The translations under genes were made by a program, and so were the position numbers. The notes under the pieces were generated by a model. That model had not been told where the DNA came from, did no database searches, and was given only the letters and a program-made list of their open reading frames with translations. Source: Thermus hydrothermalis (lineage in GTDB: Bacteria > Deinococcota > Deinococci > Deinococcales > Thermaceae). Taken from it: a DNA stretch of 64,000 nt. Within the stretch, counting starts at the first letter, position 1. The number at the start of each line of letters is the position of its first letter. The DNA lies in contig NZ_JAKTNT010000008.1 in the NCBI RefSeq assembly GCF_022760925.1, positions 1 through 64,000 on the forward strand, written 5' to 3'. Below, piece by piece: positions 16,775 to 34,708 of the stretch.

Positions 16775-17989
16775 CTAAACCCAGGCGGCCATCTCTTTGC
16801 GGATCTTGAGGAGGGCTTCCACCAGGCGGTCCACGTCCTCCTTCGTGTTGTAGAGGTAAAAGCTCGCCCGGGCGGTGGCGGGCACGCCCAGCTTGCGGTG
16901 GAGGGGTTGGGCGCAGTGGTGGCCCGCCCGCACGGCGATCCCCTCCTGGTCCAGGAAGGTGGCCAGGTCGTGGGCGTGGAGCCGGCCCAGGGTGAAGGGG
17001 ATGACCCCGCCCCGGTCCTCCCCTTTGGGGCCGTAGACCTTGAGGTCCGGCACCTCCTCCAGGCGCTCCAGGGCGTAGGCCAAAAGGGCCCGGTCGTGGG
17101 CGAAGACCTTGTCCATGCCCACCTCCATGAGGTACTGGGCGGCCTCCCCCAGGGCGACGGCCTCGGCGATGGGCGGGGTGCCCGCCTCAAAGCGCTGGGG
17201 CGGGGGGGCGTAGGTGGAGCGGTCCACGTGCACCTCGAGGATCATCTCCCCTCCTCCCAGGAAGGGCCCCATGCCTTCCAGGACCTCATACCGCCCCCAA
17301 AGCACCCCGGCCCCCGTGGGCCCCAACATCTTGTGGCCGGAAAGGGCGAAGAAGTCTGCCCCCAAGGCCTTCACGTCCACGGGCAGGTGGGGGGCGCTTT
17401 GCGCCCCATCCACCACCATCAAAGCCCCCACCTCCTTGGCCCTCCTGGCGATCTCCGCCACGGGGTTAATGGTGCCCAGGACGTTGGACATGTGCACCAC
17501 CGAGACCACCTTGACCCTCTCCGTAAGCAGGCGGTCCAGGGCGGAAAGGTCCAGCCGGCCCTCCTCGGTGAGGGGGATGGCCTTGATCCGGGCTCCCTTG
17601 AGCCCCGCCACCAGGTGCCAGGGCACAAGCCCTGCGTGGTGCTCCATTTCCGTGACCAGGATCTCGTCGCCCTCCTTAAGGTTCCTTAAGCCCCAAGCGT
17701 AGGCCACCAGGTTCAGGGCCTCGGTGGTGTTGCGCACGAAGATGATCTCCCTTTCCTCGGCGTTGAGGAAGCGGGCCATGCGGCGCCTTGCCTCCTCGTA
17801 GGCCTCGGTGGCGGCCACGGAAAGCCGGTAGGCTCCCCGGTGCACGTTGGCATTAAGCTCCTTGTAGTAGCGGTCCAGGGCCTCCAGGACCCGCTTGGGC
17901 TTCTGGCTGGTGGCGGCGGAGTCCAGGTAGACCAGATCCGGCCGCCCCGCAATCAAGGGGAAGGCTTCCCTTAGGCTGGTGAAGTCCAT
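16775..17989 (-). CDS. sufS: SufS-type cysteine desulfurase
   Basis: 404 residues. PLP enzyme that takes sulfur from cysteine for Fe-S cluster assembly. Features: MEHHAGLVPW, DGAQSAPHLPVDV, the PLP Lys in SGHKMLGPTGAGVLWG, and RAGHHCAQP with the catalytic Cys on the short loop typical of group II (SufS/CsdA) enzymes. It lies 13 kb away from sufCBD and no sufU or sufE is adjacent. TAAACT and GGAGG lie just before the ATG. Downstream is a P2-type ATPase gene. Confidence 0.93.
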   Translation of the reverse strand: MDFTSLREAFPLIAGRPDLVYLDSAATSQKPKRVLEALDRYYKELNANVHRGAYRLSVAATEAYEEARRRMARFLNAEEREIIFVRNTTEALNLVAYAWGLRNLKEGDEILVTEMEHHAGLVPWHLVAGLKGARIKAIPLTEEGRLDLSALDRLLTERVKVVSVVHMSNVLGTINPVAEIARRAKEVGALMVVDGAQSAPHLPVDVKALGADFFALSGHKMLGPTGAGVLWGRYEVLEGMGPFLGGGEMILEVHVDRSTYAPPPQRFEAGTPPIAEAVALGEAAQYLMEVGMDKVFAHDRALLAYALERLEEVPDLKVYGPKGEDRGGVIPFTLGRLHAHDLATFLDQEGIAVRAGHHCAQPLHRKLGVPATARASFYLYNTKEDVDRLVEALLKIRKEMAAWV

Positions 17990-18004: not shown

Positions 18005-20029
18005 CTAGGTATCCAGGCGCGCCCGCCTTAAGAGGAGGGCGTTGAGGGCTACCACCACCGTGGAAAGGCTCATGAAGAGGGCCCCGAGGGCCGGGGGAAG
18101 CAGGAGGCCAAAGGGGTAGGCTACGCCGGCGGCCAGGGGCAGGGCCACGATGTTGTACCCCGTGGCCCAGAAGAGGTTTTGGAGCATCTTCCTCCGGGTG
18201 GCCCGGGCCAGGTGGAGGAGGCGGACCACGTCCAGGGGATCGCTCTTGACCAGCACCACATCGGCGGATTCAATGGCCACATTGGTCCCCGCTCCGATGG
18301 CCACCCCAAGATCCGCCTCCAAGAGGGCAGGGGCGTCGTTGATCCCGTCCCCTACAAAGGCGGTGGGGCCTTGGGATTTTAGTTCCCGCACGATACGGGC
18401 CTTGTCCTGGGGTAGCACCCGGGCGCGGTAGCGCTCTATCCCCAGCTCCCGGGCCACGGTTCGGGCCACGGCCTCCGCGTCCCCGGTGAGCATCACCGGG
18501 GTGATCCCCATGCGCTTCAGGGCGTCTATCGCCTGCTTGGCCGTGGGGCGGAGGCGGTCGCGGAGGGCCAGGTAGGCGAGGACCCGACTTTCGTCCATCA
18601 GGGCCACCACGCTCTCCCCCCGGGCCTCGGCCTCCTCCAGGCCCTGCCGCAGGGAAGGGGGCACTTCCAGGCCCAGCTCCCCCGCCCACTCTGGGCGGCC
18701 CACCCGGTAGAGGCGGCGTTCCACCCGGCCCTCCACCCCTTTCCCGGGGATGGCCCGGAAGTCCTGGACCGAGGGGAGGGGAAGCCCCCGCTCCTTGGCG
18801 GCCTCCAGGATGGCCTGGGCCAGGGGGTGCTCGGAGAGGGCCTCGAGGGCCGCGGCCAAGGTTAGGGCCTCCTGCTCCCCAAGGCCATCCGCATACACCG
18901 CCCGCACCTCAAACTGCCCTTCGGTGAGGGTGCCGGTCTTGTCCAGGGCCACGTACCGGAGGCCCGTGGCCCGCTCAAAGGCCTCCCGGTTTCGGATGAG
19001 GATTCCCCTTTGGGCGGCCATGGCTGTGGCGTTGACCACCACCAAGGGTATGGCCAGGCCCAGAGCGTGGGGACAGGCGATAATCACCACGGTCACCGCC
19101 CGCTCCAGGGCGAAGGACAAGGATGCGTCGGCTAGAAGCCATAGGAGGAAGGTTGCGCTTCCACCCAGCACCGCCACGTAGAAAAGCCACCCCGCGACTC
19201 GTTCACCAAGGTCCTGAAACCGGCTCCGGGAAACCTGGGCTTCCTCCACCAGGCGCATGATCTGCCCCAGGGTGGTGGAGGTTCCGGTGCGGGTTACCCG
19301 CACCACGATGGCTCCTTCCCCGTTTAACGCCCCAGCCAGCACCTCGTCCCCCACCCCTTTGGCCACGGGCCGGGACTCCCCGGTGAGGAAGGCCTCGTTC
19401 ATGCTGGTGGCTCCTTCCACCACCACGCCATCCGCGGGCACCTGCTCCCCCGGGCGGATGAGGATGAGGTCGCCTTCCTTTAGGGCCTCGGTGGGCACGT
19501 CCTCAATCCGGCCATCCCGGACCCGGTGGGCCGTCTGGGGCATCAGCTTGGCCAAGGCCCTTAGGGCCTCCCCTGCCCCCAGGATGGCCTTCATTTCCAG
19601 AAAGTGGCCCAGGAGCATCACGTCCACCAAGGTGGCCAGTTCCCACCAGAAGGGTTTCCCCTTTAGGCCCAGCTCCACAGCCAGGCTGTAGGCAAAGGCC
19701 ACGGTGATCCCCAAGGCCACCAGGGTCATCATCCCCGGCCGCCTTCCCCTTAGCTCCCGGCTGGCACCCTGGAGAAATACGCCCCCGCCATAGAAGTAGA
19801 TAATGGTTCCGAGGAGGAGGGGCATCCAAGGGACCCCGTCCCAGGGGGGTAAGCGGAGGAAACCCCTCACCTCATCAGAGGCGTAAAGGATCGGCAGGGT
19901 GAGGAGAAGTGAGACCAGGAAGCGATTCCGGAACATCTCCGGGGTATGGCCGGCATGCCGGTCCAAAGCCTTAGTAGAGGCAGTGTGGGAAGGGTGGTGA
20001 TGGTGGTGGTGATGGTGGTGGGGAGGCAT
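18005..20029 (-). CDS. copB: CopB-type copper P-type ATPase with N-terminal His tract
   Basis: 674 residues. P1B-type pump with no HMA domain; instead the N-terminus has nine consecutive histidines, as in CopB. The membrane metal site is Cys-Pro-His (IIACPHALGLAIP), the mark of the P1B-3 subgroup (Cu2+/Ag+), not CPC. Other motifs are [24 protein letters not shown] and GDGINDAPALLEADLGVAIG. It should export copper from the cytoplasm. The start shares one base with the laccase stop (TAATG), so laccase and pump form one unit behind a copper-box promoter. Confidence 0.94.
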   Translation of the reverse strand: MPPHHHHHHHHHPSHTASTKALDRHAGHTPEMFRNRFLVSLLLTLPILYASDEVRGFLRLPPWDGVPWMPLLLGTIIYFYGGGVFLQGASRELRGRRPGMMTLVALGITVAFAYSLAVELGLKGKPFWWELATLVDVMLLGHFLEMKAILGAGEALRALAKLMPQTAHRVRDGRIEDVPTEALKEGDLILIRPGEQVPADGVVVEGATSMNEAFLTGESRPVAKGVGDEVLAGALNGEGAIVVRVTRTGTSTTLGQIMRLVEEAQVSRSRFQDLGERVAGWLFYVAVLGGSATFLLWLLADASLSFALERAVTVVIIACPHALGLAIPLVVVNATAMAAQRGILIRNREAFERATGLRYVALDKTGTLTEGQFEVRAVYADGLGEQEALTLAAALEALSEHPLAQAILEAAKERGLPLPSVQDFRAIPGKGVEGRVERRLYRVGRPEWAGELGLEVPPSLRQGLEEAEARGESVVALMDESRVLAYLALRDRLRPTAKQAIDALKRMGITPVMLTGDAEAVARTVARELGIERYRARVLPQDKARIVRELKSQGPTAFVGDGINDAPALLEADLGVAIGAGTNVAIESADVVLVKSDPLDVVRLLHLARATRRKMLQNLFWATGYNIVALPLAAGVAYPFGLLLPPALGALFMSLSTVVVALNALLLRRARLDT

Positions 20030-21432
20030 TAGCTCACCTCCAGAATCCCCATCATGCCCCGGTCCTCGTGCTCCACGATGTGGCAGTGGAAGACGGTCTT
20101 CCCGGGCAGGTTCCTAAGGGGAACCAGAAGGCGCACCACCTCCTTGGCCTTTAGGTTCACCACGTCCTTAAGGGCGCGGTAAGGGAAGGCCTTGCCGTTC
20201 ACGGAGAGGACCTGGAAGGGATGGGTGTGGAGGTGGAAGGGATGGTCCATGTCCCCTTGGTTTTCCAACTCCCAGACCTCGAGGTCGCCCACCCGCCCGC
20301 GGAAGTCCACCCGACGGTGGTCAAAGGTCTTGCCGTTGATGAAGAAGCGCCCGGCCATCATGTCCTCCGTGAAGGTGATGCGCCGGGTCACCCTGGCCTG
20401 GTTGGGGCTGAGGGCGGGCAGTTTGGCCAGGGCCTTGGGCAGGGGGAGGGGTTTGGGGCGGGGCGGGGCCACCAGGGTGAGGAGGGTTTGGGGCCTTTGG
20501 CTTGTCCCCATGGACATTCCTCCGTGGCCCATGTGCTCCATCCCGCCCATCATGTGGACCCCTCGGTCGTAGGGAAGGGCGAGGAGGCGGAAAGCCCCTT
20601 CCTTCTGGAAGCGCACCAGGACCTCTGCCCGTTCCCCGGGGGCCAGGAGGAGTTCGGGGACCTCATAGGGTTCCTCCAGGAAGCCCCCGTCGCTGGCGAT
20701 GAGGTAAAGGGGATGCCCTTCCAACTGGAGCCGGTAGTAGCGGGCGTTGCTGGCGTTCAGGAGGCGGAGGCGCAAGGTGGCCTTGCCGGCCCGCAAGGTG
20801 GGGCGGGAGGCCCCGTTCACCAGGACCAGGCTGCCCTCTTTGCCGTTGATCCAGTCCATGGGGGAATGGGCGGCGGGACGGCCCGATGCGAGCTCCAGGT
20901 CCTTGAGGACCAAAAGGTGCTCCTCGGCTTCCCGGAGTTCGGGAATCCCGTCCACGGGGCTTTCCACCACAATGGCCCCCGCTAGTCCGGCGAAGAGCTG
21001 GGGGGCCACCCGCCCGTGCAGGTGGGGGTGGTACCAGAAGGTGCCCGCCAGGTCCTGGGGCACGGTGAACTCGTAGCGCCAGGTTTCCTTGGAGGGTATC
21101 TCCAGGAGGGCATCGTCCACCTTAGGGGAGATGGGAAGCCCGTGCCAGTGCAGGTTCGTGGACTCGGGAAGGAGGTTTTCCAGCTCGAGGCGCACGGTAT
21201 CCCCAGGGCGTACCCTAAGGGTGGGCCCCGGAAAGCTACCCCCATAGGTCCAAAGCCGCGCCTCCCGCCCGGCTACGGTAACGGGGGTGGGGGCGGCCTT
21301 CAGCCGCACCTCCAGGAGCCCTTCCCGGCTTTTGAGCACCGGGGGCTCGGGAAAGGAGGCCTGCCCCCTGGCCAGGGGGGAGAGGAGGAGGCCTGCGGTG
21401 AGCTTAAGAAGGGTTCGGCGGTCGGTATTCAT
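20029..21432 (-). CDS. Multicopper oxidase (laccase), Tat-exported
   Basis: 467 residues. Tat-type signal (DRRTLLKLTAGLLLSPLARGQA). All copper motifs are present: NLHWHGLP, FWYHPHLHG, HPFHLHTHPFQV and FHCHIVEHEDRGMM, with Met as type 1 axial ligand. A Met/His-rich insert (HMMGGMEHMGHGGMSMG, about residue 295) resembles the hairpin of the T. thermophilus laccase and CueO, and suggests cuprous oxidase activity. It probably detoxifies Cu(I) outside the membrane. TATCCT ends eight bases before the ATG, implying a leaderless mRNA controlled by the upstream copper box. Confidence 0.95.
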   Translation of the reverse strand: MNTDRRTLLKLTAGLLLSPLARGQASFPEPPVLKSREGLLEVRLKAAPTPVTVAGREARLWTYGGSFPGPTLRVRPGDTVRLELENLLPESTNLHWHGLPISPKVDDALLEIPSKETWRYEFTVPQDLAGTFWYHPHLHGRVAPQLFAGLAGAIVVESPVDGIPELREAEEHLLVLKDLELASGRPAAHSPMDWINGKEGSLVLVNGASRPTLRAGKATLRLRLLNASNARYYRLQLEGHPLYLIASDGGFLEEPYEVPELLLAPGERAEVLVRFQKEGAFRLLALPYDRGVHMMGGMEHMGHGGMSMGTSQRPQTLLTLVAPPRPKPLPLPKALAKLPALSPNQARVTRRITFTEDMMAGRFFINGKTFDHRRVDFRGRVGDLEVWELENQGDMDHPFHLHTHPFQVLSVNGKAFPYRALKDVVNLKAKEVVRLLVPLRNLPGKTVFHCHIVEHEDRGMMGILEVS

Positions 21433-21440
21433 ACCCTTAG

Positions 21441-21473
21441 AGGATAGGGGGGGTTTGTAAAAGAAGTATAAAG
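21441..21473 (-). promoter_or_regulatory. Proposed copper-box promoter of the laccase-copB operon
   Basis: Read on the minus strand: CTTTAT (21473-21468), four bases, CTTTTAC (21463-21457), exactly ten bases, then TATCCT (21446-21441). The ATG follows eight bases later. The same layout and spacing recur at four other promoters of the island; the box overlaps the -35 position. This is the most divergent of the five. Confidence 0.6.
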
Positions 21474-21489
21474 GTCCCTCCAGAACCCC

Positions 21490-21879
21490 CTAGAGTTTGG
21501 CCAAGGCTTTCTCCAGCCGGTTTCTCGCCTCCTCGGCTACGGGTTTGAGCGCCTCCTGGGTTTCTGTAGGAAGGACCCGGAACATCTCCCTGGGATCCTG
21601 CAAGAGGACCTCCACGCCCTCTGGCCCCTCCTTGAGCACCGCATTGCAGGGGAGGAGGAGGCCGATATCGGGCTCGGCCTCGAGGGCTTTGGCGGCCAGG
21701 TTCGGGTTGCAGGCCCCCAGGATCAAGTAGGGGGGCCTTTCCAGGCCCAGGCGGGCCTTGAGGGTGGCGGCCACGTCGATCTCCGTGAGGATGCCGAAAC
21801 CTTCTTCCCTTAGCGCGGTTTCCAACCGGGCCCGGGCCTCGGCCAGGCTGGCCCTAAGGGTCTTCCTTAATTCCGTCAT
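21490..21879 (-). CDS. DUF302 domain protein
   Basis: 129 residues, no signal peptide or membrane helix. The DUF302 core is recognisable: an N-terminal helix, REEGFGILTEIDVAATLKARLG, then YLILGACNPNLAAKALEAEPDIGLLLPCNAVLKE. The conserved GACNP and LLPCN cysteines are present. Function unknown; such genes are often near metal or redox stress genes. It has its own upstream region (about 135 bases) without the copper box found at its neighbours; TACACT is a possible -10. Confidence 0.88.
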   Translation of the reverse strand: MTELRKTLRASLAEARARLETALREEGFGILTEIDVAATLKARLGLERPPYLILGACNPNLAAKALEAEPDIGLLLPCNAVLKEGPEGVEVLLQDPREMFRVLPTETQEALKPVAEEARNRLEKALAKL

Positions 21880-21976
21880 GATACCCTCCTAACCTAAAGT
21901 GTAACGGAGCCTGAGGCAAAGGGTCTTTTGTGAAGGTTGTGTTGAGCTCCCTGGGGGTATAGGAAAACCTGGGACC

Positions 21977-22002
21977 CCGCCTGGGTCTTTGGCCCCAGGC
22001 GG
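21977..22002 (-). terminator. Terminator after the Met-rich protein gene
   Basis: Arms CCGCCTGGG (21977-21985) and CCCAGGCGG (21994-22002) followed on the minus strand by a GC-rich gap and TTTTCC at about 21962-21967. It ends the SHOCT/Met-rich transcript before the DUF302 gene. Confidence 0.6.
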
Positions 22003-22014
22003 AGCCCCTGGGAG

Positions 22015-22668
22015 TTACTTACCCAGGAAGAAGCCATGCCAGGTGTGGACCCAGACCTCCCCCGTGTAGGCGTTCACGGAAAGCATGCCCTCCACCTCCT
22101 TGCGCCCGAAGTCAAAGGTGTAGTAGCCGGGGAAGGCCCCGGCTTCCATCACCCGGGCCCCCGGGAGGTAGCCTTTTAGGAAGGTCTCGGCCAGCTTTTT
22201 GGCCTCCTCCAAGGGGAAGCGGACAGGAGTCTGCACGGGCCCGCCCATCATGCCGTAACGGGTGTTCCACATCATGTTGGGGCCAGGTTCCGGGGAAACC
22301 ACCCCGGTGTAGCGATCGGCGATGAGCTCAAAAAGCCCCTGCCCTTTCTCGTCCACCACCTGGGCGTAGTAGTTTTGGCTGAAGGCCATGAAGTCCTTAA
22401 GGCGTGCCCCCGGGTAGATGCGCTTGGCGTAGGCTTCCATCCGCGCTTTGGCTTCTGCCTGGGAAATGGGGCGGGCTTCCGGGGGGTAAACCGCCATCAT
22501 GCCCATCATCCCGTAGCCGCCCATCATGCCGTAGCCCATCATCCCCGGGCCGTACTGCGGGCCGTAGCCCATCATCCCCGGACCAAAACCCCCCATCATG
22601 CCCTGGGTGAGGGCAAGACCTAAAAGCATAAGGGCCAGAACTCCTAGAGTTAAACCGTAGCGTTTCAT
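22015..22668 (-). CDS. Secreted Met-rich PepSY-like protein
   Basis: 217 residues. Signal peptide (about 1-22), then a Met/Gly/Tyr-rich segment (about 23-55) with repeated GMMGY and GPGMMGY units, then two PepSY-like halves: one around ISQAEAKARMEAYAKRIYPGARLKDFM and one around FPLEEAKKLAETFLKGYLPGARVME, the latter ending in GMLSVNAYTGEVWVHTWHG. Thioether-rich repeats of this kind bind Cu(I). It overlaps the upstream SHOCT gene by four bases. Its position in a copper island and the copper box upstream suggest a periplasmic copper-binding role; this is inference. Confidence 0.75.
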   Translation of the reverse strand: MKRYGLTLGVLALMLLGLALTQGMMGGFGPGMMGYGPQYGPGMMGYGMMGGYGMMGMMAVYPPEARPISQAEAKARMEAYAKRIYPGARLKDFMAFSQNYYAQVVDEKGQGLFELIADRYTGVVSPEPGPNMMWNTRYGMMGGPVQTPVRFPLEEAKKLAETFLKGYLPGARVMEAGAFPGYYTFDFGRKEVEGMLSVNAYTGEVWVHTWHGFFLGK

Positions 22669-22910
22669 GCTTCACCTCCCTGTTCCAGTTCCTTCCGCAA
22701 CCTTCTGTAGGTTTCCTCGTCCAGCTCGCCCCTGGCGTACCGGAGGCGCAGGGCCTCCAGGGCCGCATCCTTTCGCGGCTCCCCGCTTCCCCGTTCCCAG
22801 GCCCGAAGGCCCAGGTACAGGAGAAGTCCCAGGAGGGCCAGCACCAGGAGCATGTTGAGAAGCCCGAAGAACCACCCGAAACCCATGCCGCCCCAACCCA
22901 TCATGCCCAC
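22665..22910 (-). CDS. SHOCT-domain membrane protein 1
   Basis: 81 residues. A Met/Gly/Trp-rich start (MGMMGWGGMGFGWFFG), one transmembrane helix (about 14-36), and a C-terminal SHOCT motif LRLRYARGELDEETYRRLRKEL. GTG at 22910 with GGAGG six bases upstream. First gene of a two-gene unit with the Met-rich secreted protein. It is a paralogue in layout of the SHOCT protein at 27.5 kb that leads the two-component operon. Possibly a small copper-responsive membrane partner. Confidence 0.8.
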   Translation of the reverse strand: MGMMGWGGMGFGWFFGLLNMLLVLALLGLLLYLGLRAWERGSGEPRKDAALEALRLRYARGELDEETYRRLRKELEQGGEA

Positions 22911-22927
22911 GATCCACCTCCATCTGT

Positions 22928-22960
22928 ACCCTAGGCCGGTATTGTTAAGCTGGCATAAAG
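22928..22960 (-). promoter_or_regulatory. Proposed copper-box promoter of SHOCT 1/Met-rich unit
   Basis: Read on the minus strand: CTTTAT (22960-22955), four bases, GCTTAAC (22950-22944), ten bases, TAGGGT (22933-22928). It lies three bases from the mirror-image box of the divergent CcdA-like gene, so one region controls both directions. Confidence 0.7.
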
Positions 22961-22963
22961 GGG

Positions 22964-22996
22964 TTTTACCGGCGCTTAACGTTTGGCCCTTAAGCT
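22964..22996 (+). promoter_or_regulatory. Proposed copper-box promoter of the CcdA-like/methyltransferase unit
   Basis: Plus strand: TTTTAC (22964-22969), four bases, GCTTAAC (22974-22980), ten bases, TAAGCT (22991-22996). The ATG of the CcdA-like gene follows after seven bases, so the mRNA would be leaderless. Confidence 0.7.
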
Positions 22997-23003
22997 GATG
23001 GAC

Positions 23004-23828
23004 ATGCGAAGAGGGCTCCTGGCGCTTGGTCTTGCTGTCCTGGGCCTGGTGGGGTTGGCCTTGGGAAGCGGGCTACTGGAGGAGGTTTCCCGAAGCCTTT
23101 ACCGAATGGCCAACACCCTGTACGCTCTCCTGGCCCCCTGGGTGGATGGCCTGAGGGGGGAAGTGGGGGTCCCTTGGCTTTCCGCTTTCCTACTCGGGGT
23201 CTTGGCGGCCTTTGCCCCCTGCCAGATCACCACTGGGGCCAGCGCCCTGGCCTATCTGGCTCCCTTCGCCCTCGAGGGAAGGGTCTGGCCCAGGTTTCTG
23301 GCCTTTCTCCTGGGGAAGGCCTTCACCTACCTGGTGCTCGCCGGGGTGGTTCTCTTCGTTTTGGGCGGGACCCTGGACAACCCCGGGGCCATCTTCCGCC
23401 CGGTGCGGCTGGCCCTTGGGCCCTTCATGATCCTGGTGGGCCTGGGCCTTTTGGGAGTGGTGCGCTGGCCCCTGGCCTGGGCGGCACCGGAGGGCTGGGT
23501 GGCCCGGGTGGGGGCGTGGGGTGGGCTTCTGGGGCCCTTGGCTTTGGGTGGGGTTTACGGCTTGGCCTTCTGCCCTACCCTCTTCTGGCTTTTCTTCGGG
23601 CTTCTACTCCCTTTGGCCCTGGCTTCTTCCTTTGGGTTTCTCTTTCCCCTTCTCTTCGCCCTGGGGACGGGCTTTCCCCTGGGTTTTCTGCTCCTCCTTT
23701 TCACCCGCATGGGCCGGGGCCAGGCCCTCAAGGGAATGCGCCTCGTGGGAAGCCATCTTCTAAGGGGTGCAGGGGCAGTCTTCGTGGCCCTGGGGATGTT
23801 GGACACGGTGCTTTACTGGAACCTCTAG
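23004..23828 (+). CDS. CcdA/DsbD-like multi-pass membrane protein
   Basis: 274 residues from the ATG at 23004, chosen because a -10 ends seven bases before it. N-terminal helix, a short extracytoplasmic segment (about 27-55), then six helices. Cysteines sit in FAPCQITTG (first core helix) and AFCPTLFW (fourth), the paired positions used by CcdA/DsbD to carry electrons across the membrane. In copper tolerance such proteins (compare ScsB, DsbD) reduce periplasmic thiols oxidised by copper; a TauE/UreH-like transporter is another reading. The downstream methyltransferase starts 16 bases after it. Confidence 0.72.
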   Translation: MRRGLLALGLAVLGLVGLALGSGLLEEVSRSLYRMANTLYALLAPWVDGLRGEVGVPWLSAFLLGVLAAFAPCQITTGASALAYLAPFALEGRVWPRFLAFLLGKAFTYLVLAGVVLFVLGGTLDNPGAIFRPVRLALGPFMILVGLGLLGVVRWPLAWAAPEGWVARVGAWGGLLGPLALGGVYGLAFCPTLFWLFFGLLLPLALASSFGFLFPLLFALGTGFPLGFLLLLFTRMGRGQALKGMRLVGSHLLRGAGAVFVALGMLDTVLYWNL

Positions 23829-23844
23829 CATGGGAGGCAAGGGG

Positions 23845-24465
23845 ATGAAGAAGGGTTTAAGGGCTCGGTTTTTCGCCACCCTCCTTCCCGTCCTTTCCCG
23901 GGGGCACGTGGGCTTGAGCGAACCCTGGCGGAAGAAACTCCTGGGAAGCCTGGCGGGGAAGGTTTTGGAGATCGGCCCGGGGACGGGGGTTAACCTGGCC
24001 TATCTGCCGGATGGCGTCCACTGGATTGGCCTCGAGCTCAATCCCTACTTCCACCCCCACCTTAAGCAGGCCCTAAGCCTGAGGGGGCTTTCCGGTGAGG
24101 TTCTTTTAGGCCAGGCGGAGGCCATCCCCCTGCCGGAGGAAAGCGTGGAGGCCGTGGTGGCCACCTTGGTCCTTTGCTCGGTGGAGGATCCCAGAGGGGC
24201 TTTGGCGGAGATCCTCAGGGTGTTGAAGCCCGGGGGGCGTTTGGTCTTTTTGGAACACGTGGCCGCTCCCCGGGGCTCCTCCCTGCGCCGATTCCAGGAC
24301 CTCCTTTGCCCCTTATGGAGTTTTTTGGGGGACGGCTGCCATCCCAACCGGGAAACCCTAGCCCTTATTCGGGAGGCGGGGTTTGCCCGGGTGGAGGCGG
24401 AGGCCTTTGAACTACCCCTCCCCCTGGTGGCCCCCCATGTGGCCGGGGTGGCCTGGAAGGGATAG
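23845..24465 (+). CDS. SAM-dependent methyltransferase, METTL7-like
   Basis: 206 residues from the ATG at 23845 (GGGAGG seven bases upstream). SAM motif I VLEIGPGTGVNLAYLP, then EAIPLPEESVEAVVATLVLCSVEDP. The C-terminal block FLEHVAAPRGSSLRRFQDLLCPLWSFLGDGC-HPNRET strongly recalls METTL7/TMT1-type enzymes (EHV, then Q..P.W, then DGC..xRET), known in animals as thiol S-methyltransferases. UbiE-like methyltransferases lack this block. It is co-transcribed with the CcdA-like gene under the copper box; a small-thiol substrate is a guess. Confidence 0.8.
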   Translation: MKKGLRARFFATLLPVLSRGHVGLSEPWRKKLLGSLAGKVLEIGPGTGVNLAYLPDGVHWIGLELNPYFHPHLKQALSLRGLSGEVLLGQAEAIPLPEESVEAVVATLVLCSVEDPRGALAEILRVLKPGGRLVFLEHVAAPRGSSLRRFQDLLCPLWSFLGDGCHPNRETLALIREAGFARVEAEAFELPLPLVAPHVAGVAWKG

Positions 24466-24468
24466 CCC

Positions 24469-25227
24469 TCAGCGCCCCTGCCAGAGGGTGCCCCTTTCGT
24501 CCACCCAGGCCAGCCAACCCTCCTCCTGGGGATGGGCGGTGAGGGCCAACACCGCTCCCTGCCAGATCCTGCGCCACCCCGCTTCCGTCCGCCGCCAGAG
24601 GCCGAGCTTTCCTCCCAGGTACAGGGTGCCCGAAGGGGAGAGGGCCAGGGGTCCCGGGGCGGGGTCAGGGGAGGGAATGGGGCGGAAGCTTTCGCCTCCA
24701 TCCTCGCTCAGGAAGAGCCCCCTTTCCATAAGGGAAGCCCAGAGGCGGCCCTTTTGGTCCACCAGGAAGAAGGCCATCCCCGCTTTGGGCAGGCCCCGGG
24801 CGGGAAGCTTTGCCCAGGTCTGCCCGCCGTCCTGGCTGCGGAAGTAGCCGTAGGTGGCCTCGAGGGTGTAGTGGACCTCAGGCTTCCTGGGATCGATGGC
24901 ATAGGCGTGGAGGTCCAGGGCGGGAAGGCCCTTGGGCCTTAGGTCGCGGAAGCGCTTGAGATCCCGGCTTTCCGCAAGGATCCAGTGCCCGGCCGCGATC
25001 AGGCGTTCGCCTCCCCAGGCCAGGTTCATGGCGTCCCAGTCCCGCCGCCGCACCAGGTCCTGGGAGGTGCTGTTGCTCCAGGCAACGATGCCGTCGTGGT
25101 GGCCCAGGAGCAGGACTCCCGAGGGGTGCCACAAAAGGGCGTGAACATCCCGCGTGGGCACCGGACCCAGGGGAGTTTGGGCCAGGGCGAGGCCGAGGAA
25201 GAGGGTAAAAAAGGTGAAAGGGCGCAT
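24469..25227 (-). CDS. Secreted beta-propeller protein (BNR/sortilin-like repeats)
   Basis: 252 residues. Signal peptide (about 1-16, ending ALAQ). Repeats of the kind FRSQDGGQTWAKLP and FLSEDGGESFRPIP are Asp-box/BNR repeats that form the blades of a six- or seven-bladed propeller; the protein is just long enough for one. No catalytic residues are evident. It begins six bases after the cueP stop and shares its copper-box promoter. Similar propellers act as substrate or partner platforms, for example near the copper chaperones of other bacteria, but I cannot say which role applies here. Confidence 0.78.
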   Translation of the reverse strand: MRPFTFFTLFLGLALAQTPLGPVPTRDVHALLWHPSGVLLLGHHDGIVAWSNSTSQDLVRRRDWDAMNLAWGGERLIAAGHWILAESRDLKRFRDLRPKGLPALDLHAYAIDPRKPEVHYTLEATYGYFRSQDGGQTWAKLPARGLPKAGMAFFLVDQKGRLWASLMERGLFLSEDGGESFRPIPSPDPAPGPLALSPSGTLYLGGKLGLWRRTEAGWRRIWQGAVLALTAHPQEEGWLAWVDERGTLWQGR

Positions 25228-25233
25228 GGCGTT

Positions 25234-25749
25234 CTACCGTGAGGCGAGGCGGAAGCCGGTAAGGCAGGTGGGGCTTTGGCTGAAGGTGGTCACGGAGCTG
25301 GTGGCTGCCAGGTTCCCCCAGCGGATCTCCAGGGTGTAGCGGCGGTTGCGGGGCAACCAGAGCTCAAAGAACCCGTCCTTCCCCGATCTGACCTGGGTCT
25401 TGAGCACCTCCTTTTCCCCCTCCAGCACCCGAACCTCAAAGACCTCCTCCTGGAGTTCCCCCGTGCAGCTGGAGAAGTAGTGGACCTGGCAGGGATGGGT
25501 ACGGCTCACGTAGGGGGCTATCGCCAGGAGGAAGCGGTCCTTGAGGGCCACCTGGGCCTTGCGGCCGTCCGGGAACTCGAAGAAGAAGGCCTCGGGGGTC
25601 ACGTAGCTCACCACCCTTTGCCCTTCCTCCCGCCACCGCTTGGCCAGAGCCAGGGCCTCTTCGGGCTTCAGGCCTTTGAGGGCCTCGGGGGAGGGAGTCT
25701 GGGCCAGGCCTAAAGCCACGCCTAGGGCAAGCGCCAGAAGCTTCTTCAT
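25234..25749 (-). CDS. cueP: CueP-family periplasmic copper-resistance protein
   Basis: 171 residues. Signal peptide (about 1-17). The CueP signature is clear: HPCQVHYFSSCTGEL, DGFFELWLPRNRRYTLEI and TTFSQSPTCLTGFRL, giving the three conserved cysteines. In Salmonella CueP binds periplasmic copper and supports copper tolerance. I use the ATG at 25749 because TAGGGT ends seven bases before it, so the mRNA is probably leaderless; three upstream codons are open but would sit inside the promoter. First gene of a pair with the propeller protein. Confidence 0.88.
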   Translation of the reverse strand: MKKLLALALGVALGLAQTPSPEALKGLKPEEALALAKRWREEGQRVVSYVTPEAFFFEFPDGRKAQVALKDRFLLAIAPYVSRTHPCQVHYFSSCTGELQEEVFEVRVLEGEKEVLKTQVRSGKDGFFELWLPRNRRYTLEIRWGNLAATSSVTTFSQSPTCLTGFRLASR

Positions 25750-25756
25750 GGCTCTC

Positions 25757-25789
25757 ACCCTAAGCCTTGCCCGTTAAGCCTGTGTAAAG
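25757..25789 (-). promoter_or_regulatory. Proposed copper-box promoter of cueP
   Basis: Read on the minus strand: CTTTAC (25789-25784), four bases, GCTTAAC (25779-25773), ten bases, TAGGGT (25762-25757), then seven bases to the ATG. The box lies within the last codons of the histidine kinase gene. Confidence 0.7.
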
Positions 25790-26881
25790 GGGCAGGGTGA
25801 AGCGGAAAACGCTTCCCCGGCCCAGCTGGCTTTCCACCCAGATCCTTCCCCCCATGGCTTCTACCAGGCTCTTGGCGATGGTGAGGCCCACTCCGGTTCC
25901 CCCATCCTGACGGCTGCGGGAGGGGTCTATGCGGTAGAAGCGCTCAAAGATGCGGGGAAGGTGTTCCTCGGGGATGCCGGGCCCTGTGTCCTCCACGCTG
26001 AAGACCACCGCCTGGCCTGTCCTTTCCGCCCCAAGCCTCACCCTTCCTCCCTCCGGGGTATGGCGGAGGGCGTTGGAAAGCAGGTTGGCGAGCACCTGGA
26101 GGGTCCGTTCCGCATCGGCCCAGACCCGGGGAAGAAAGGAGGGGGCCGCCACCTCCAGGGCCACTCCCTTGGCCTGGAAGGCGGGGCGGAAGCGTTCCGC
26201 CGCCTGTTCCAGGAGTTCTTTGGGATCCAGGGGCCCGGGGTGAAGCTCCACGGCTCCCGACTCCACCTGGGAAACCAGGGAGAGGTCCCGGACCAGCCGG
26301 CTCATGGCCCGCACTTCCTGCTGGATCCTTTCCGCTGCCTTTTCAGGCTCCATGACCCTGTCCGCCAGGGCCTCGGCGTAGGCCTGCAGGGCGGATAGGG
26401 GGGTCCTGAGCTCGTGGGCTACGGTGCCGATGAGCTCTACCCGGCTTTGTTCCACCTTTTCCAGGGCCTCGGCCAGGCGGTTGAAGTGGAGGGCCAGCTC
26501 GCCCAGCTCGTCCTGCTCCAGAAGGGGAAGGCGCACCCGGTACTCCCCTTGGGCCATGCGCCGGCTTCCCTCGGAAAGAAGCCTTGCGGTGCGGGAGAAA
26601 CGCAGGCTGGCGAAGGAGGCGGAAAGGGCAGCCCCGGCCACGGAGAGGGGAAGGGCGGCGAGGAGGGCGGTAGTGAGGGTGGAACGCAGGCCCGCCTCGA
26701 GGTCCCGCCTCAAGGCCTCGCCCATCATGAGCCCCCCCATCATGGAGAGGGCGTGGTACATGCGCTCCACGTGTCCCCGGTAGAAGGAGGGAGCCAGGGC
26801 TTCGGCCAGGAGGAAGAACAGGAAAAGGGCCAGGAGGGCCACCAGGAGATGGCTGAGGAAGAGCTTAGCGAAGAGGCGCAT
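25760..26881 (-). CDS. Sensor histidine kinase, probably copper-responsive (CopS-like)
   Basis: 373 residues from the ATG at 26881, which overlaps the regulator gene. Two transmembrane helices flank a short periplasmic loop with YRGHVERMYHALSMMGGLMM, which is rich in Met and His, as expected for a copper sensor. Then HAMP (about 95-145), dimerisation/H-box GTVAHELRTPLSAL, N-box NLLSNALRHTPEGG, and G boxes DTGPGIPEE and GGTGVGLTIA. It autophosphorylates and passes phosphate to the adjacent OmpR-type regulator. The copper assignment rests on the loop and on the neighbours. Confidence 0.9.
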   Translation of the reverse strand: MRLFAKLFLSHLLVALLALFLFFLLAEALAPSFYRGHVERMYHALSMMGGLMMGEALRRDLEAGLRSTLTTALLAALPLSVAGAALSASFASLRFSRTARLLSEGSRRMAQGEYRVRLPLLEQDELGELALHFNRLAEALEKVEQSRVELIGTVAHELRTPLSALQAYAEALADRVMEPEKAAERIQQEVRAMSRLVRDLSLVSQVESGAVELHPGPLDPKELLEQAAERFRPAFQAKGVALEVAAPSFLPRVWADAERTLQVLANLLSNALRHTPEGGRVRLGAERTGQAVVFSVEDTGPGIPEEHLPRIFERFYRIDPSRSRQDGGTGVGLTIAKSLVEAMGGRIWVESQLGRGSVFRFTLPLYTGLTGKA

Positions 26882-27542
26882 CGGTTTCCCGGAAGCGGTA
26901 TCCCACACCCCGCACCGTTTCGATGAACCGGGGGTTTTCCGGATCGTCCATGAGCTTTTTTCTCAAAGCAGCGATGTGCACGTCCACCACCCGGTCTATG
27001 CCCGGGAAATCCGGCCCCCATACCTTTTCCAAGAGCCTTTCCCGGGTGAAGACCATCCCCGGATGCTGGGCCAGGGTGAGGAGGAGGTCAAATTCCAGCT
27101 GGGAAAGGGGAAGGGGCTTGCCCTCCAGGTAGGCCTGCCGCTCCTTGGGAAGAAGGCGCAAGGGGCCATAGTTGAGCTCTTCCTTGAGGCCAGCCCGCCT
27201 GAGGAGGGCCTTGACCCGGGCCACCACCTCCTTGGGGCTGAAGGGCTTGACCACGTAGTCGTCGGCCCCGAGCTCCAGCCCCTTAACCCTTTCCTCCTCC
27301 TCTCCTCTTGCCGTCAGCATGAGGATGGGTAGCTCGGGCCTTTCCCGGCGGACCTCCGCCAGAACCCGGAAGCCATCCAGCTTGGGCAGCATGAGGTCCA
27401 GGATGATGAGATCGGCCCGGGGAAAAAGCTCCAGGGCCTTTTCCCCATCTTTTGCCTCCAGCACCTCAAACCCAGCCCCCCTCAGGTAGGCCCCCAGGAC
27501 CTCGAGGAGGGCCGGGTCGTCGTCCGCCAGGAGGACCTTCAT
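26865..27542 (-). CDS. OmpR-family response regulator (CopR-like)
   Basis: 225 residues. Receiver domain with DDD at 7-9, phospho-acceptor Asp49 in LIILDLMLP, Thr in MLTARG and Lys in VKPFSPKE, then a winged-helix DNA-binding domain ending VRGVGYRF. The start overlaps the SHOCT gene as ATGA and its end overlaps the kinase by 17 bases. It is the best candidate to bind the direct-repeat-like box (TAAG/TAAAG about ten bases apart) found at five promoters of this island, including the one in front of its own operon. Confidence 0.92.
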   Translation of the reverse strand: MKVLLADDDPALLEVLGAYLRGAGFEVLEAKDGEKALELFPRADLIILDLMLPKLDGFRVLAEVRRERPELPILMLTARGEEEERVKGLELGADDYVVKPFSPKEVVARVKALLRRAGLKEELNYGPLRLLPKERQAYLEGKPLPLSQLEFDLLLTLAQHPGMVFTRERLLEKVWGPDFPGIDRVVDVHIAALRKKLMDDPENPRFIETVRGVGYRFRETDAPLR

Positions 27543-27751
27543 GCCAGGTCCCGCTTCATCCGCTCAAAGGTTTCCTTGTCGATCTCCCCCCTGGCGTAGC
27601 GCTCCCTTAGCACCTCTAAGGCCCGGTCCCGCCGCTCAGGGGCTAAGGTCCTGACGATCCAGTAGACCAAGAGGCCTAGGAGGGCGAACCAAAGGAGGCT
27701 TAAGAGGGGCCCCCACCAGCCCAGGTACCCACCGTGGTCGCACCACCACAT
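27539..27751 (-). CDS. SHOCT-domain membrane protein 2
   Basis: 70 residues from the ATG at 27751 (AGGAGG eight bases upstream); a GTG three codons earlier is possible. A short Trp/Cys/His-bearing start (MWWCDHGG), one transmembrane helix (about 12-33), and a C-terminal SHOCT motif LEVLRERYARGEIDKETFERMKRDL. Leads the two-component operon and overlaps the regulator start. Paralogous in design to the SHOCT protein at 22.7 kb. Confidence 0.8.
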   Translation of the reverse strand: MWWCDHGGYLGWWGPLLSLLWFALLGLLVYWIVRTLAPERRDRALEVLRERYARGEIDKETFERMKRDLA

Positions 27752-27771
27752 ACCTTTCACCTCCTAGTTCC

Positions 27772-27804
27772 AGCTTAGCCTCGGCGGATTAAGCTACGGT
27801 AAAG
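27772..27804 (-). promoter_or_regulatory. Proposed copper-box promoter of the SHOCT 2/two-component operon
   Basis: Read on the minus strand: CTTTAC (27804-27799), four bases, GCTTAAT (27794-27788), ten bases, TAAGCT (27777-27772). The transcript would have a 15-base leader with a ribosome site. The box overlaps the last codons of copA, and its presence implies autoregulation. Confidence 0.68.
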
Positions 27805-30164
27805 CTCCTTGGCTGGAACCCTTTTAGCCTCAAGGAGTTGCTGAGCACGAAGAGGCTGGAGAGGGTCATGGCACCGGCCGCCAGCATGGGGTTCAGAAGA
27901 AGCCCGGTGAAGGGGTAAAGAGCCCCGGCCGCCACGGGGATGAGGAGGATGTTGTAGGCGTAGGCCCAGAAGAAGTTGAGGTAGATGGTCCGAAGGGTAC
28001 GCCGTGCCAGAAGGATGGCGTCCACCAAGCTTTCCAGGCTCGGAGAAAGCAGGATGACATCCCCTGCCTCCACGGCGATGTCCGTGCCCGTGGCCAGGGC
28101 GATGCCCGCATCGGCCTGGGCCAAGGCGGCGGCGTCGTTGATGCCGTCCCCCACAAAGATCACCTTCCGCCCCTGGGCCTGGAGGTGCCGTATGGCCTCC
28201 ACCTTACCCTCAGGGCGCACCCCGGCCAGCACCTCCTCTATGCCCAAGGCCTCGGCCACCCGCCTGGCCGGGATGGGGTGGTCCCCGGTGAGGAGGACGG
28301 GTTTGAGGCCCAGGGCCTTTAAAGCGGCCACCACCCTTCGCGCCTCGGGCTTGGGGGGGTCAAAGACCCCGAAGGCGGCCAAAAGCCTCTCCCCATCCGC
28401 CAGGTAAAGGGGAGTGTAGCCCTTTTCGGATAGCTCCCAGGCCTCCTTGGGAAGCGCCACCCCAAGCCTCTCCATCAGGGCTGGACCCCCCAGGTAAAGC
28501 TTCTTCCCCTCCACCACTCCCTCGATCCCCTCCCCGGGAAGAGCCCGCACCGCCTGGGCCTCGGGCAGGCTGAGATCCCTGGCTGCCTCCAGAACCGCCT
28601 TGGCGATGGGGTGTTCGCTTCCCCGCTCCAAGGCGGCGGCGAGGCGCAAGGCCTCCTCAGGGCTTAGGGCAAACCCCAGGCGTTCCGTGAGGGTGGGCTT
28701 CCCTTGGGTCAGGGTCCCGGTCTTGTCCAGGACCACGGTATCCGCCCGGGCGAGGCCTTCGATGGCCTGGCCCTTGCGGAAGAGGAGGCCGAGCTGGGCC
28801 GCCCGCCCCGTGGCCACAGCGATGGCCGCTGGGGTGGCGAGGCCCATGGCGCAAGGGCAGGCGATGAGGAGCACGGAAAGGAGGGCCACGAAGGCGTAGG
28901 AGAGGCCGGGGCCATAGAGAATCCAAAGGGTAAAGGTGATAAGGGCGATGATGAGCACGATGGGCACGAAGACGCTGGCGATGCGGTCCGCCACCTCCTG
29001 CACCCGGGGCTTGTAGGCCTGGGCTTCCTCCACCAGGCGGGCCATCTGGGCCAGGACCGTGGCCTCCCCCACCCGGCTTACCCGGATGAGGAGGGGACCT
29101 TCCCCGTTCACCGTACCCCCCACCACCTCATCCCCGGGCTTTTTGACCTTGGGAATGGGCTCCCCGGTGAGCATGGCCTCGTCCACGTGGCTAAAGCCCT
29201 CCACCACCACCCCATCTGCGGGGATGCGCTCCCCGGGAAGCACCCGCACCAGATCCCCGGGGATGAGGGCCTCGGCGGGGATTTCCCTTTCCTCCCCTTC
29301 CTGAACCACCCGGGCGGTCTTGGGCCTCAAGGCCAGGAGCTTGCGGATGGCCTCCGAGGCCTTCCCCTTGGCCTTTTCCTCCAGGTGCTTGCCCAAAAGG
29401 ATCAGGGCCAGGATCACCGCCCCCGCCTCGAGGTAGAGATGGCGGGCCTCCTCGGGGAAAAGGGTGGGGAAGAGGAGGACCAAAAAGGAGTAAAGGTAGG
29501 CGCTTCCCGCCCCCAGGGCCACCAGGGTGCTCATGCCCAGGGAGCGGTGCCGGATCTCCGCCAGGGCCTGGCGGAAGAAGCGCCGGCCGGCGTAGAGGAC
29601 GGGGAGGGCGGTGAGGACCTGGAAGAGAGGAGGAAGGTGGGGAAGGGGAAGAAGCATGGGCCCCATGGCTAGGAGAAGGGTGAGGAAGGCAAAGGGCAGG
29701 GCGATGAGGAGGTCCAAGGGATAAGCGGGGGCCCGTTTTTCCTCCTGGACCACCTCCAGGGGCTCGTACCCTGCATCCCGGATGGCCTGGCGCAGGCGGG
29801 GCAGGGTCACGGTGTCCGGGAGGTACTCCACGAAGGCCTTCTCCGTGGCCAGGTTCACGTGGGCGGAAAGCACCCCGGGTAGCTTCTTCAAGGCCCTTTC
29901 CACCCGGGCCACGCAGGCGGCGCAGGTCATGCCCTTTACGGGGATCTCCGCCCGGGCCACCACGGGCTCGTAGCCGGCCTCCTCCACCTGCTTCAGGACC
30001 TCCTTGAGGTCTATGCCTTCCTGGAGGCGCAAAAAGGCTTCCTCGGTGGTGAGGTTGACCCGGGCTTCCTCCACGCCCGGGGCCCTTTTCAAGGCCCTTT
30101 CCACCCGCACCACGCACGAGGCGCAGGTCATTCCCTTTACCCCTACCTTCACTTCCAATGCCAT
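27789..30164 (-). CDS. copA: CopA copper-exporting P-type ATPase
   Basis: 791 residues from the ATG at 30164 (AGGGGG about nine bases upstream). Two N-terminal HMA domains, each with a metal-binding CxxC (GMTCASC near residue 12 and GMTCAAC near residue 80). The membrane site is CPC ([14 protein letters not shown]), marking a P1B-1 Cu(I) pump. [17 protein letters not shown] and [22 protein letters not shown] complete the set. It exports cytoplasmic Cu(I). It follows csoR in the copZ-csoR-copA operon; the codons upstream of 30164 are open but overlap the csoR end. Confidence 0.95.
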
Positions 30165-30250
30165 AGCTTCATACCCCCTAGCGGAAACCCCTTTGCTTTC
30201 CCCGGGCTGGTGTGCCCTTGGGCTTCTGCCCCGCCCTGGACCGGGTGGGA

Positions 30251-30535
30251 TCAACGGTACTTGAGGGCCTCCATCAGTTCCTCCACGATTTCCTCCACGT
30301 CCCCCCGCTCGTGGGCGGTGGCCACGTGGTCCCGGAGGTGGGCCCTTAAGACCATCTCCCCCACCCGGTCCAGGGCACCCTCCACCGCCTTGAGTTGCTT
30401 CAGCACGTCCACGCAGTAGACGTGGGGATCCTCCAGCATGCGCAGGATGCCCTCGAGGTGGCCCTTGGCGGAGAGAAGGCGCCTTTTGGCCTCTTCCCGC
30501 ACCTTGGGGTCCAGGTGGAGGGGGTGGCGGGGCAC
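30251..30535 (-). CDS. csoR: CsoR copper-sensing repressor
   Basis: 94 residues, an all-helical DUF156 repressor. The ligand set is Cys41 (VYCVDVL), His66 (RAHL) and His70 (RDH), matching the C-H-H arrangement described for the T. thermophilus CsoR rather than the C-H-C of other CsoRs. It releases DNA when copper binds. GTG start at 30535. Second gene of copZ-csoR-copA, so it controls its own operon through the dyads upstream of copZ. Confidence 0.95.
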
Positions 30536-30544
30536 AGGGCCTCC

Positions 30545-30745
30545 TTAGCCCGCCAGGGCGGCCCGGTAGCCTTCCTCTTCCACGGCCCGGATCAAGGCCT
30601 CAGGGTCCGCCTTGCCCTCCACCAGGGCCTCGGCCCGTTCCAGGCTCACCTCGACCTTCTCCACCCCGGGCACCTTCATGAGGGCCTTCTTGACCGCCAT
30701 CACGCAGTGGTTGCAGGTCATGCCTTCTACCTTGAGTTTCAGCAT
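30545..30745 (-). CDS. copZ: CopZ copper chaperone
   Basis: 66 residues, a single HMA domain with GMTCNHC (Cys11 and Cys14). Carries Cu(I) in the cytoplasm to CopA and CsoR. First gene of the operon, with GGAGG shortly before its ATG and two overlapping CsoR-type dyads in its promoter. Confidence 0.95.
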
Positions 30746-30758
30746 CCCTTACCTCCCC

Positions 30759-30788
30759 CCACCCCAGGTGGGGTGGGTACTCCCACCC
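30759..30788 (-). promoter_or_regulatory. Double CsoR-type operator over the copZ promoter
   Basis: Two perfect 7-4-7 inverted repeats share sequence: CCACCCC/GGGGTGG (30759-30776) and GGGTGGG/CCCACCC (30771-30788). The C4-G4 core resembles known CsoR operators. They cover the -10 and start-site region, so occupancy would block RNA polymerase. Confidence 0.8.
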
Positions 30789-30813
30789 TAGCGCTTCTTC
30801 CGCCTGCCGTCAA
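30785..30813 (-). promoter_or_regulatory. Promoter of copZ-csoR-copA
   Basis: On the minus strand TTGACG (30813-30808), 17-base spacer, TAGGGT (30790-30785). It overlaps the CsoR-type dyads. Confidence 0.75.
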
Positions 30814-30818
30814 GGACA

Positions 30819-30845
30819 AAGGCCCCAAGTCCTCCTTGGGGCCTT
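30819..30845 (-). terminator. Hairpin ending the suf operon
   Basis: AAGGCCCCAAG and CTTGGGGCCTT, 11 base pairs with a five-base loop, about 18 bases after the Rieske stop. Only a short T run follows, so it may need help or may insulate the copZ promoter lying directly behind it. Confidence 0.7.
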
Positions 30846-30862
30846 GCGAACGGGATGGGCGT

Positions 30863-31165
30863 CTATAGGTCCAGAAGGATGGTATCCCCCTCCAGCTTGG
30901 CGGGGAATACCTTTACCGGCTTGGGGGCGGGCAGGGTCTGCCGGCCCGTCTTCAGGTCAAAGCGGGCCCCGTGCCGGGGGCAGACGATCTGGCCGTCTTC
31001 CACATCCCCCTCGTGGAGGGGGCCGCCGTCGTGGGTGCAGATGTCCTCCAGGGCGAAGACCTCCTCCCCGGTGTAGAGGAGGAGGATGGGCTTCTTGTGC
31101 TCGGGCCTTTTGACCACCAGCCTGCCGTTTTCCAGCTCGCTCAGCTTGGCCACCGGGGTCCACAT
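30863..31165 (-). CDS. Rieske [2Fe-2S] ferredoxin in the suf operon
   Basis: 100 residues, a soluble Rieske domain with CTHDGGPL (Cys43, His45) and CPRHGARFD (Cys62, His65). No membrane anchor, so it is not the bc1 Rieske protein. It starts five bases after sufD and closes the operon. Such small Rieske proteins are electron carriers; a role in supplying electrons for cluster assembly is suggested only by position. Confidence 0.88.
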   Translation of the reverse strand: MWTPVAKLSELENGRLVVKRPEHKKPILLLYTGEEVFALEDICTHDGGPLHEGDVEDGQIVCPRHGARFDLKTGRQTLPAPKPVKVFPAKLEGDTILLDL

Positions 31166-31170
31166 GGCCT

Positions 31171-32466: not shown

Positions 32467-32477
32467 CTTGCCTCCTC

Positions 32478-32505
32478 AAAAAGGAAGAGGCCCTTGGCCC
32501 CTTCC
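32478..32505 (-). terminator. Intra-operon terminator between sufB and sufD
   Basis: Read on the minus strand: GGAAGGGGCC, AAG, GGCCTCTTCC (ten pairs, one G-U), then TTTTT, directly before the GGAGG of sufD. It looks like an intrinsic terminator that lets only part of the transcripts through. Confidence 0.75.
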
Positions 32506-32522
32506 CAAGACACGTCTGGCCT

Positions 32523-34678: not shown

Positions 34679-34708
34679 GCTTTTGCCTCCCAAAGGCCGG
34701 GCCGCACC

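Follow-up and report, generated by a model that had tools for sequence, protein, structure and literature searches.

In Thermus hydrothermalis, a gene for a predicted METTL7/TMT1-type methyltransferase directly follows a gene for a CcdA-like membrane protein inside an island of copper-defence genes that is conserved in Thermus. The pair was analyzed in a window of 64,000 nucleotides, to which all coordinates refer unless a locus is named. What we rate as new here is that a methyltransferase of the TMT1/Mdd type occurs among genes of copper defence and thiol redox. Our preferred reading, which we hold to have about an even chance of being right, is that a cytosolic S-methyltransferase for small thiols (TMT1/METTL7–Mdd type) works beside a CcdA-type carrier in copper defence.

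The ccdA-like gene (22998–23828, plus strand; alternative ATG at 23004) encodes a membrane protein of 276 residues of the DsbD_2 family, and the class I methyltransferase gene (23845–24465, plus strand) could also start at the ATG at 23830. With the ATG at 23845, which is preceded (by reading) by GGAGG at 23833–23837, the genes are separated by 16 bases (23829–23844), as the sequence-only reading had noted; with the ATG at 23830 the gap is 1 base. The methyltransferase is 100% identical to one encoded on a Thermus brockianus contig. Upstream, a divergent intergenic region (22911–22997) separates ccdA from SHOCT1, a small SHOCT-like membrane protein (22665–22910; Pfam SHOCT 24.3 bits, under the cut-off of 27). 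SHOCT1 shares the minus strand with a Met-rich periplasmic-type protein (22015–22668; an open reading frame that matches no Pfam or NCBIfam family), a DUF302 protein (21490–21879; Pfam), a CueO-like multicopper oxidase (20029–21432; NCBIfam PRK10965 266 bits, under the cut-off of 525) and copB, a conserved neighbor named by reading as a CopB-like copper-type P-ATPase with a His-rich N-terminus (18005–20029). A terminator-like stem (21971–22008, minus strand; 15 pairs, 12 of them G–C) lies between the genes for the Met-rich and DUF302 proteins. Past the pair, also on the minus strand, come a BNR protein related to the F510_1955 family (24469–25227; NCBIfam NF045728 68 bits, under the cut-off of 175), a copper protein of the CueP family (25234–25758; CueP_fam 130.6 bits, over the cut-off of 60), a histidine kinase (25760–26908) and response regulator (26865–27542) named by reading, a copA-type P-ATPase with two metal-binding domains (27789–30254; named by reading, true start probably near 30164) and csoR (30260–30496; PF02583 78.6 bits, over cut-off). 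A SHOCT protein is encoded between the regulator and copA, and copZ was also named by reading. The island is flanked by genes named by reading: a sufS-like cysteine desulfurase gene (16775–17989) on one side, and sufD, sufB and sufC (31171–34693) on the other.

The sequence-only reading placed both genes behind one copper box and under copper control. The published site of CsoR from T. thermophilus (TtCsoR), CCCCACCCCACCTGGGGTGGGG (PMC10318464), matches the genome once, at 30757–30778 on the minus strand with 1 mismatch, and precedes copZ–csoR–copA and the genes toward cueP and the BNR protein. This sole operator is 7.8 kb from the ccdA operon, and a scan of the window and genome with the TtCsoR site found none before ccdA, which counts against our preferred reading. 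The ccdA–SHOCT1 intergenic region does contain a block (22927–22949) that is conserved in the alignment of the 13 Thermus genomes with ccdA and is recognizable in four of the five that carry the methyltransferase without a full ccdA, and could thus act on SHOCT1, on the ccdA operon or on both. It could be tied to no copper regulator, and with no CsoR operator at the operon the claim of copper control was not borne out. A motif of the CsoR-family protein TTHA1953 fits before ccdA at 22927 (2 mismatches), yet its 2 matches within a limit of 3 mismatches do not exceed the 2.6 expected. Generic TACCC-N7-GGTA and ATACCCTNNG motifs match at chance level. A sigma-70-type scan of 20000–31200 gave one site (21878–21905, minus strand) against 0.7 expected.

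Pfam assigns general methyltransferase domains to the window METHYLTRANSFERASE, including Ubie_methyltran at 33.8 bits (cut-off 20.1) over 54 residues only. The protein has the marks of a class I SAM fold: GPGTG at residues 49–53, with G49, G51 and G53 invariant in 24 sequences, and an acidic SAM anchor, E69, in an L-[DE]-x-N-P setting and likewise invariant in 24 sequences (D98 in METTL7A/B). The EHV...Q...P.W...DGC..RET block on which the METTL7 assignment had first been based is present at residues 142–176 (numbered from the ATG at 23830), and its conservation far beyond Thermus excludes chance. Human METTL7A/B entered the BLAST, motif comparison and tree as provisional sequences, and this counts against the preferred reading. 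At G78/G80/G82, D98 and four lysines, these sequences match what is reported for the human proteins (PMC10705543). The peptide CLDPNPHFEKFL, which covers the D98 region of METTL7B and comes from a mutagenesis primer given in PMC7921093, aligns with GLELNPYFHPHL of the window protein; other Thermus have ALEPNPFFHP there.

Against these provisional METTL7 sequences, BLAST gives 36.5% identity over 219 positions and 116 bits, versus 58.5 bits for MenG; PmtA-like sequences from the same taxonomic order reach 85–101 bits with the window protein, close to METTL7A (provisional sequence) at 104. LCSV, EHV and G-x-C-x3-R blocks are common to the Thermus protein and the provisional METTL7 sequences and are absent from MenG. 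In a tree of 55 rows, with long outgroup branches, an unsure root and provisional human rows, METTL7A/B and Thermus form a clade of 31 rows (support 97/81) that also takes in cyanobacterial, Chloroflexota, Acidobacteriota, Planctomycetota and a few other sequences; the window protein is placed with METTL7, not with MenG or the PmtA-like rows. The UbiE/COQ5 (MenG) models of NCBIfam score far under their cut-offs (TIGR01934 33.4 vs. 158.35; PRK00216 models 23.8–39.7 vs. 216–378), and the genome carries a separate MenG-like gene elsewhere (named by reading). A BioC model also falls far under its cut-off. Tree, shared motif and low UbiE scores thus support the earlier assignment of the protein as a predicted METTL7-type enzyme. 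Its likeness to TMT1A/TMT1B (METTL7A/B; provisional sequences) covers GxGxG, the acid ending strand 2 and the LCSV, EHV and DGC...RE blocks; it differs in having Glu69 for Asp98, in being encoded in a bacterial operon and in lacking the N-terminal anchor of the provisional human sequences. Because no hydrophobic membrane anchor was found in its N-terminus (by reading), it is not filed as METTL7 proper. MddM1, described below, is likewise truncated at the N-terminus relative to the METTL7 anchor (PMC12904073).

The structure prediction proposed by the sequence-only reading gave an AlphaFold2 model (pLDDT 91.6), and the nearest solved fold turned out to be PmtA. This brings in the main rival explanation, that the methyltransferase modifies a membrane lipid as a PmtA-like N-methyltransferase, for envelope repair under copper stress, and that ccdA acts independently; we consider it quite unlikely. 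The phosphatidylethanolamine N-methyltransferase PmtA (8ys9) is the best solved relative by sequence (E 3.9e-11) and clearly the nearest fold (Z 23.8, rmsd 2.4, 196 aligned, 21% identity; next Z 19.4), which counts against the preferred reading, and helix 10–29 at the N-terminus of the model looks amphipathic (by reading), as the lipid explanation would have it. No METTL7 or Mdd structure is among the PDB sequence matches or the 50 fold matches listed, so the fold ranking cannot decide between METTL7 and PmtA. Three points speak against a lipid substrate: the NCBIfam PmtA model NF045882 scores 29.6 bits against a cut-off of 390, the LCSV and EHV blocks are missing from PmtA in the printed alignment, and the tree sets METTL7 nearer than the PmtA-like rows.

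The CcdA-like call for the membrane protein is upheld by Pfam DsbD_2, at 43.4 bits over a cut-off of 24.9. All 14 sequences compared keep two cysteines in the membrane, Cys75 (APCQ) and Cys192 (AFCPT), as expected for a CcdA-type carrier. A relative in a genome of the Meiothermus family has a DUF3105 gene on one side and, on the other, a DsbE/ResA-like gene and then PCuAC; together with the family match and the cysteines, this favors a carrier. Two further relatives in the order (L158, L165) adjoin ResA/DsbE-like genes. The structure model (pLDDT 63.5) is too poor for a fold search. No thioredoxin-like gene was recognized next to ccdA or elsewhere in the Thermus island, and this counts against the preferred reading. 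The thiol-reducing membrane partner of the sequence-only reading stands at family level only, as a probable CcdA-type carrier.

In NCBIfam, the membrane protein matches only the ArsG permease (NF040495, 113.5 bits, under the cut-off of 200), and ArsM is among the weak matches of the methyltransferase. Both would suit a metalloid defense in which an ArsG-like permease and an ArsM-like methyltransferase export or methylate arsenicals or similar compounds. Such a role appears very improbable: the ArsM models reach 20.7–46.1 bits against cut-offs of 240–575, the ArsG match also misses its threshold, the neighbors are copper genes, and METTL7B is reported to be inactive on substrates of arsenic methyltransferase (PMC7921093).

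In our sample of 26 Thermus genomes (G000–G025), the methyltransferase is found in 18 and ccdA over most of its length in 13, with a fragment in a fourteenth (G004). All 13 genomes with ccdA also have the methyltransferase, and in 11 of them the ccdA stop is followed by the first methyltransferase ATG after 1 nt. In the two others the genes are 1751 nt apart (G009) or at the ends of two contigs (G010). Some copies look broken, possibly through sequencing error: G009 has a TGA within ccdA and the methyltransferase in two frames, G006 has ccdA in two frames and G021 the methyltransferase in two frames. Co-presence has a Fisher-test value of 0.0016, which overstates the association as the genomes are related. 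Five genomes keep the methyltransferase in the island slot without a full ccdA (none in G002, G003, G012 and G014; the fragment in G004), so the pairing that had been proposed holds in Thermus, not as an obligatory one, and these genomes count against the preferred reading. One genome (G023) has a second methyltransferase copy (L149, contig C56; 73% identity), which is separated from the first by about 7 kb.

The five genomes also suit a rather doubtful explanation, in which two independent stress genes share a promoter for historical reasons. The methyltransferase would then deal with sulfide in general in the hot-spring habitat, ccdA would serve copper or cytochrome thiols, and the two would have neither a joint function nor copper control. 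The missing CsoR operator fits this as well, whereas the 1-nt spacing kept in 11 genomes speaks against it. Evidence from outside Thermus bears on both sides.

Among 22 hand-picked plasmid regions, CcdA is present in 6 and was not found in 16 (one of them unannotated). Plasmids of Sulfitobacter, Salipiger and Marinovum share one kind of cluster, with CcdA 4–6 nt before the methyltransferase and with DsbE and TlpA; that of Salipiger additionally has PCuAC, SCO and DsbA. On a Burkholderia contaminans plasmid, CcdA is about 3 kb from the methyltransferase, with TlpA and SCO. In Streptomyces sp. NBC_00637, TlpA adjoins the methyltransferase, accompanied by two CcdA, a peroxiredoxin and a glutaredoxin; in Streptomyces liliifuscus, a copper cluster has CcdA divergent at 117 nt, with a P-type ATPase, a CopY-type regulator and CopC.

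A less biased count covered 80 regions at methyltransferase matches from searches of proteobacterial (398), cyanobacterial (242) and actinobacterial (296) genomes; this count and the neighbor surveys of Thermus and of the closer clade used stop-to-stop BLAST or tblastn. CcdA was detected by BLAST in 4 of the 80 (L270, L282, L331, L333). Counted by genome, 3 of the 59 proteobacterial and actinobacterial genomes (G788, G269, G242) have it close to a related methyltransferase, against an expectation of 0.107 (P about 0.0002; doubling the expectation raises P to 0.0014). This figure rests on one CcdA query with 55 matches in the 59 genomes and assumes an even spread along genomes; the query missed the L282 match. 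Locus L270 also has TlpA and DUF411, L331 has TlpA and DUF302, and L333 has copA, a peroxiredoxin, a glutaredoxin and TlpA, with a stop in its ccdA match. The association above chance extends the proposed pairing beyond Thermus and, like the plasmid clusters with CcdA, argues against two independent genes. The proteins involved are more distant relatives: the CcdA-linked methyltransferases of Sulfitobacter, Salipiger, Burkholderia, Streptomyces NBC_00637, L270, L331 and L333 carry the same motif and fall outside the METTL7–Thermus clade, and the CcdA near methyltransferases elsewhere best match DsbD_TM (PF02683), another subfamily than that of Thermus (4 of 4 tested). Both points count against the preferred reading.

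The closer clade was surveyed at 80 of 94 confirmed loci. Matches to CcdA or other thiol-redox reference sequences were found at 0 of its 71 non-Thermus loci, which favors independent genes and counts against the preferred reading. Copper or heavy-metal genes lie near the methyltransferase at 11 of 18 cyanobacterial loci (two or more such genes at 8), an argument against independent genes, and at 9 of the 53 other non-Thermus loci, mostly as weak matches. On cyanobacterial plasmids, the metal-gene neighborhood agrees in 2 of 5 inspected.

Other neighbors recur as well. A BNR protein like F510_1955 is found beside the methyltransferase or CcdA in Thermus and in the Meiothermus-family genome (G038; L163 1500–2243), in 7 of the 71 non-Thermus loci (all cyanobacterial; for example, L091 4652–5689) and in the proteobacterium G788 (L270 7315–7789). 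DUF302 recurs near these methyltransferases in Thermus, in the actinobacterium G269 (L331 6616–6994) and on a Haloarcula plasmid (L175 6177–6617). In cyanobacterial metal clusters, a membrane-like protein of about 160 residues with FLWEMQQMPFF adjoins the methyltransferase (L091 6572–7066, L129 3383–3862); a Pfam search of the L091 copy gave no match.

The most likely substrate of the methyltransferase, by analogy, would be H2S, methanethiol or another small thiol. MddM1 and MddM2 are bacterial S-methyltransferases for H2S and methanethiol (MeSH), of 210 and 204 residues, which show extended similarity to TMT1A/B and MddH (PMC12904073, December 2025). As reported there, active Mdd homologues occur in Acidobacteriota, Deltaproteobacteria, Dictyobacter and actinobacteria; mdd genes are induced by Met, MeSH, H2S and H2O2; E. 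coli carrying mdd genes grows better under H2S, MeSH and H2O2; and glutathione, cysteine and CoA are not substrates (PMC12904073). MddM1 proteins were called against MddM1 of M. poriferae (PP661493) at identity of at least 40%, E of at most 1e-30 and coverage of at least 70%; a liverwort relative that is 41% identical to one MddM1 showed no activity (PMC12904073), which counts against the preferred reading. By published description, the Thermus protein resembles MddM1, MddM2 and MddH in size, in similarity to TMT1A/B and in occurrence of its relatives in Chloroflexota, Acidobacteriota and Proteobacteria; it differs in setting, as the words copper, Thermus and Deinococc occur 0 times in the main text of PMC12904073. 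Our literature search by titles and abstract openings found no METTL7/Mdd-type methyltransferase described in a copper cluster. The sequence-only reading had called this way of managing thiols unusual; that holds for the copper context, and the enzyme kind itself is already published. Grouping with METTL7A/B, the shared blocks and the activity of the Mdd enzymes on H2S and MeSH together favor a small-thiol substrate.

Under the preferred reading, the SAM-dependent methyltransferase would turn H2S, methanethiol or related small alkyl thiols into capped methyl sulfides when copper upsets the handling of sulfur. The CcdA-type partner, with its two cysteines, would pass cytosolic electrons across the membrane and keep periplasmic copper-handling proteins reduced, most plausibly CueP in the Thermus island. 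CueP is a plausible client as ScsB keeps ScsC reduced and ScsC of Salmonella interacts with CueP, as reported in PMC8900818. The ScsB–ScsC–CueP system of Salmonella also combines a membrane thiol-reducing carrier with CueP in one copper system. The Thermus carrier differs in being a short member of the DsbD_2 family that lacks periplasmic domains, and a ScsC-like gene was not seen in its island. The shared operon leads us to infer a shared function for the two genes, possibly with induction by copper. Favoring the pair are its co-presence in all 13 Thermus genomes with ccdA, the kept spacing, the three proteobacterial and actinobacterial genomes and the Streptomyces copper cluster.

A broader proposal, speculative and on the doubtful side, is that copper-defence clusters of several phyla each took up related thiol S-methyltransferases on their own, along with thiol reduction of the CcdA/TlpA type. 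The reductive branch would keep copper-handling thiols reduced, and the methylating branch would remove sulfide or small thiols that copper releases when it attacks Fe–S clusters and thiol pools. The position of the Thermus island between genes read as suf Fe–S assembly genes touches on this proposal. If it is true, volatile methyl sulfides would be a product of copper stress. TMT1/Mdd-type thiol methyltransferases have so far been tied to the handling of sulfide, drugs and oxidative stress; if they prove recurrent beside CcdA-type carriers in metal-resistance clusters, thiol methyltransferases would be linked to copper defense.
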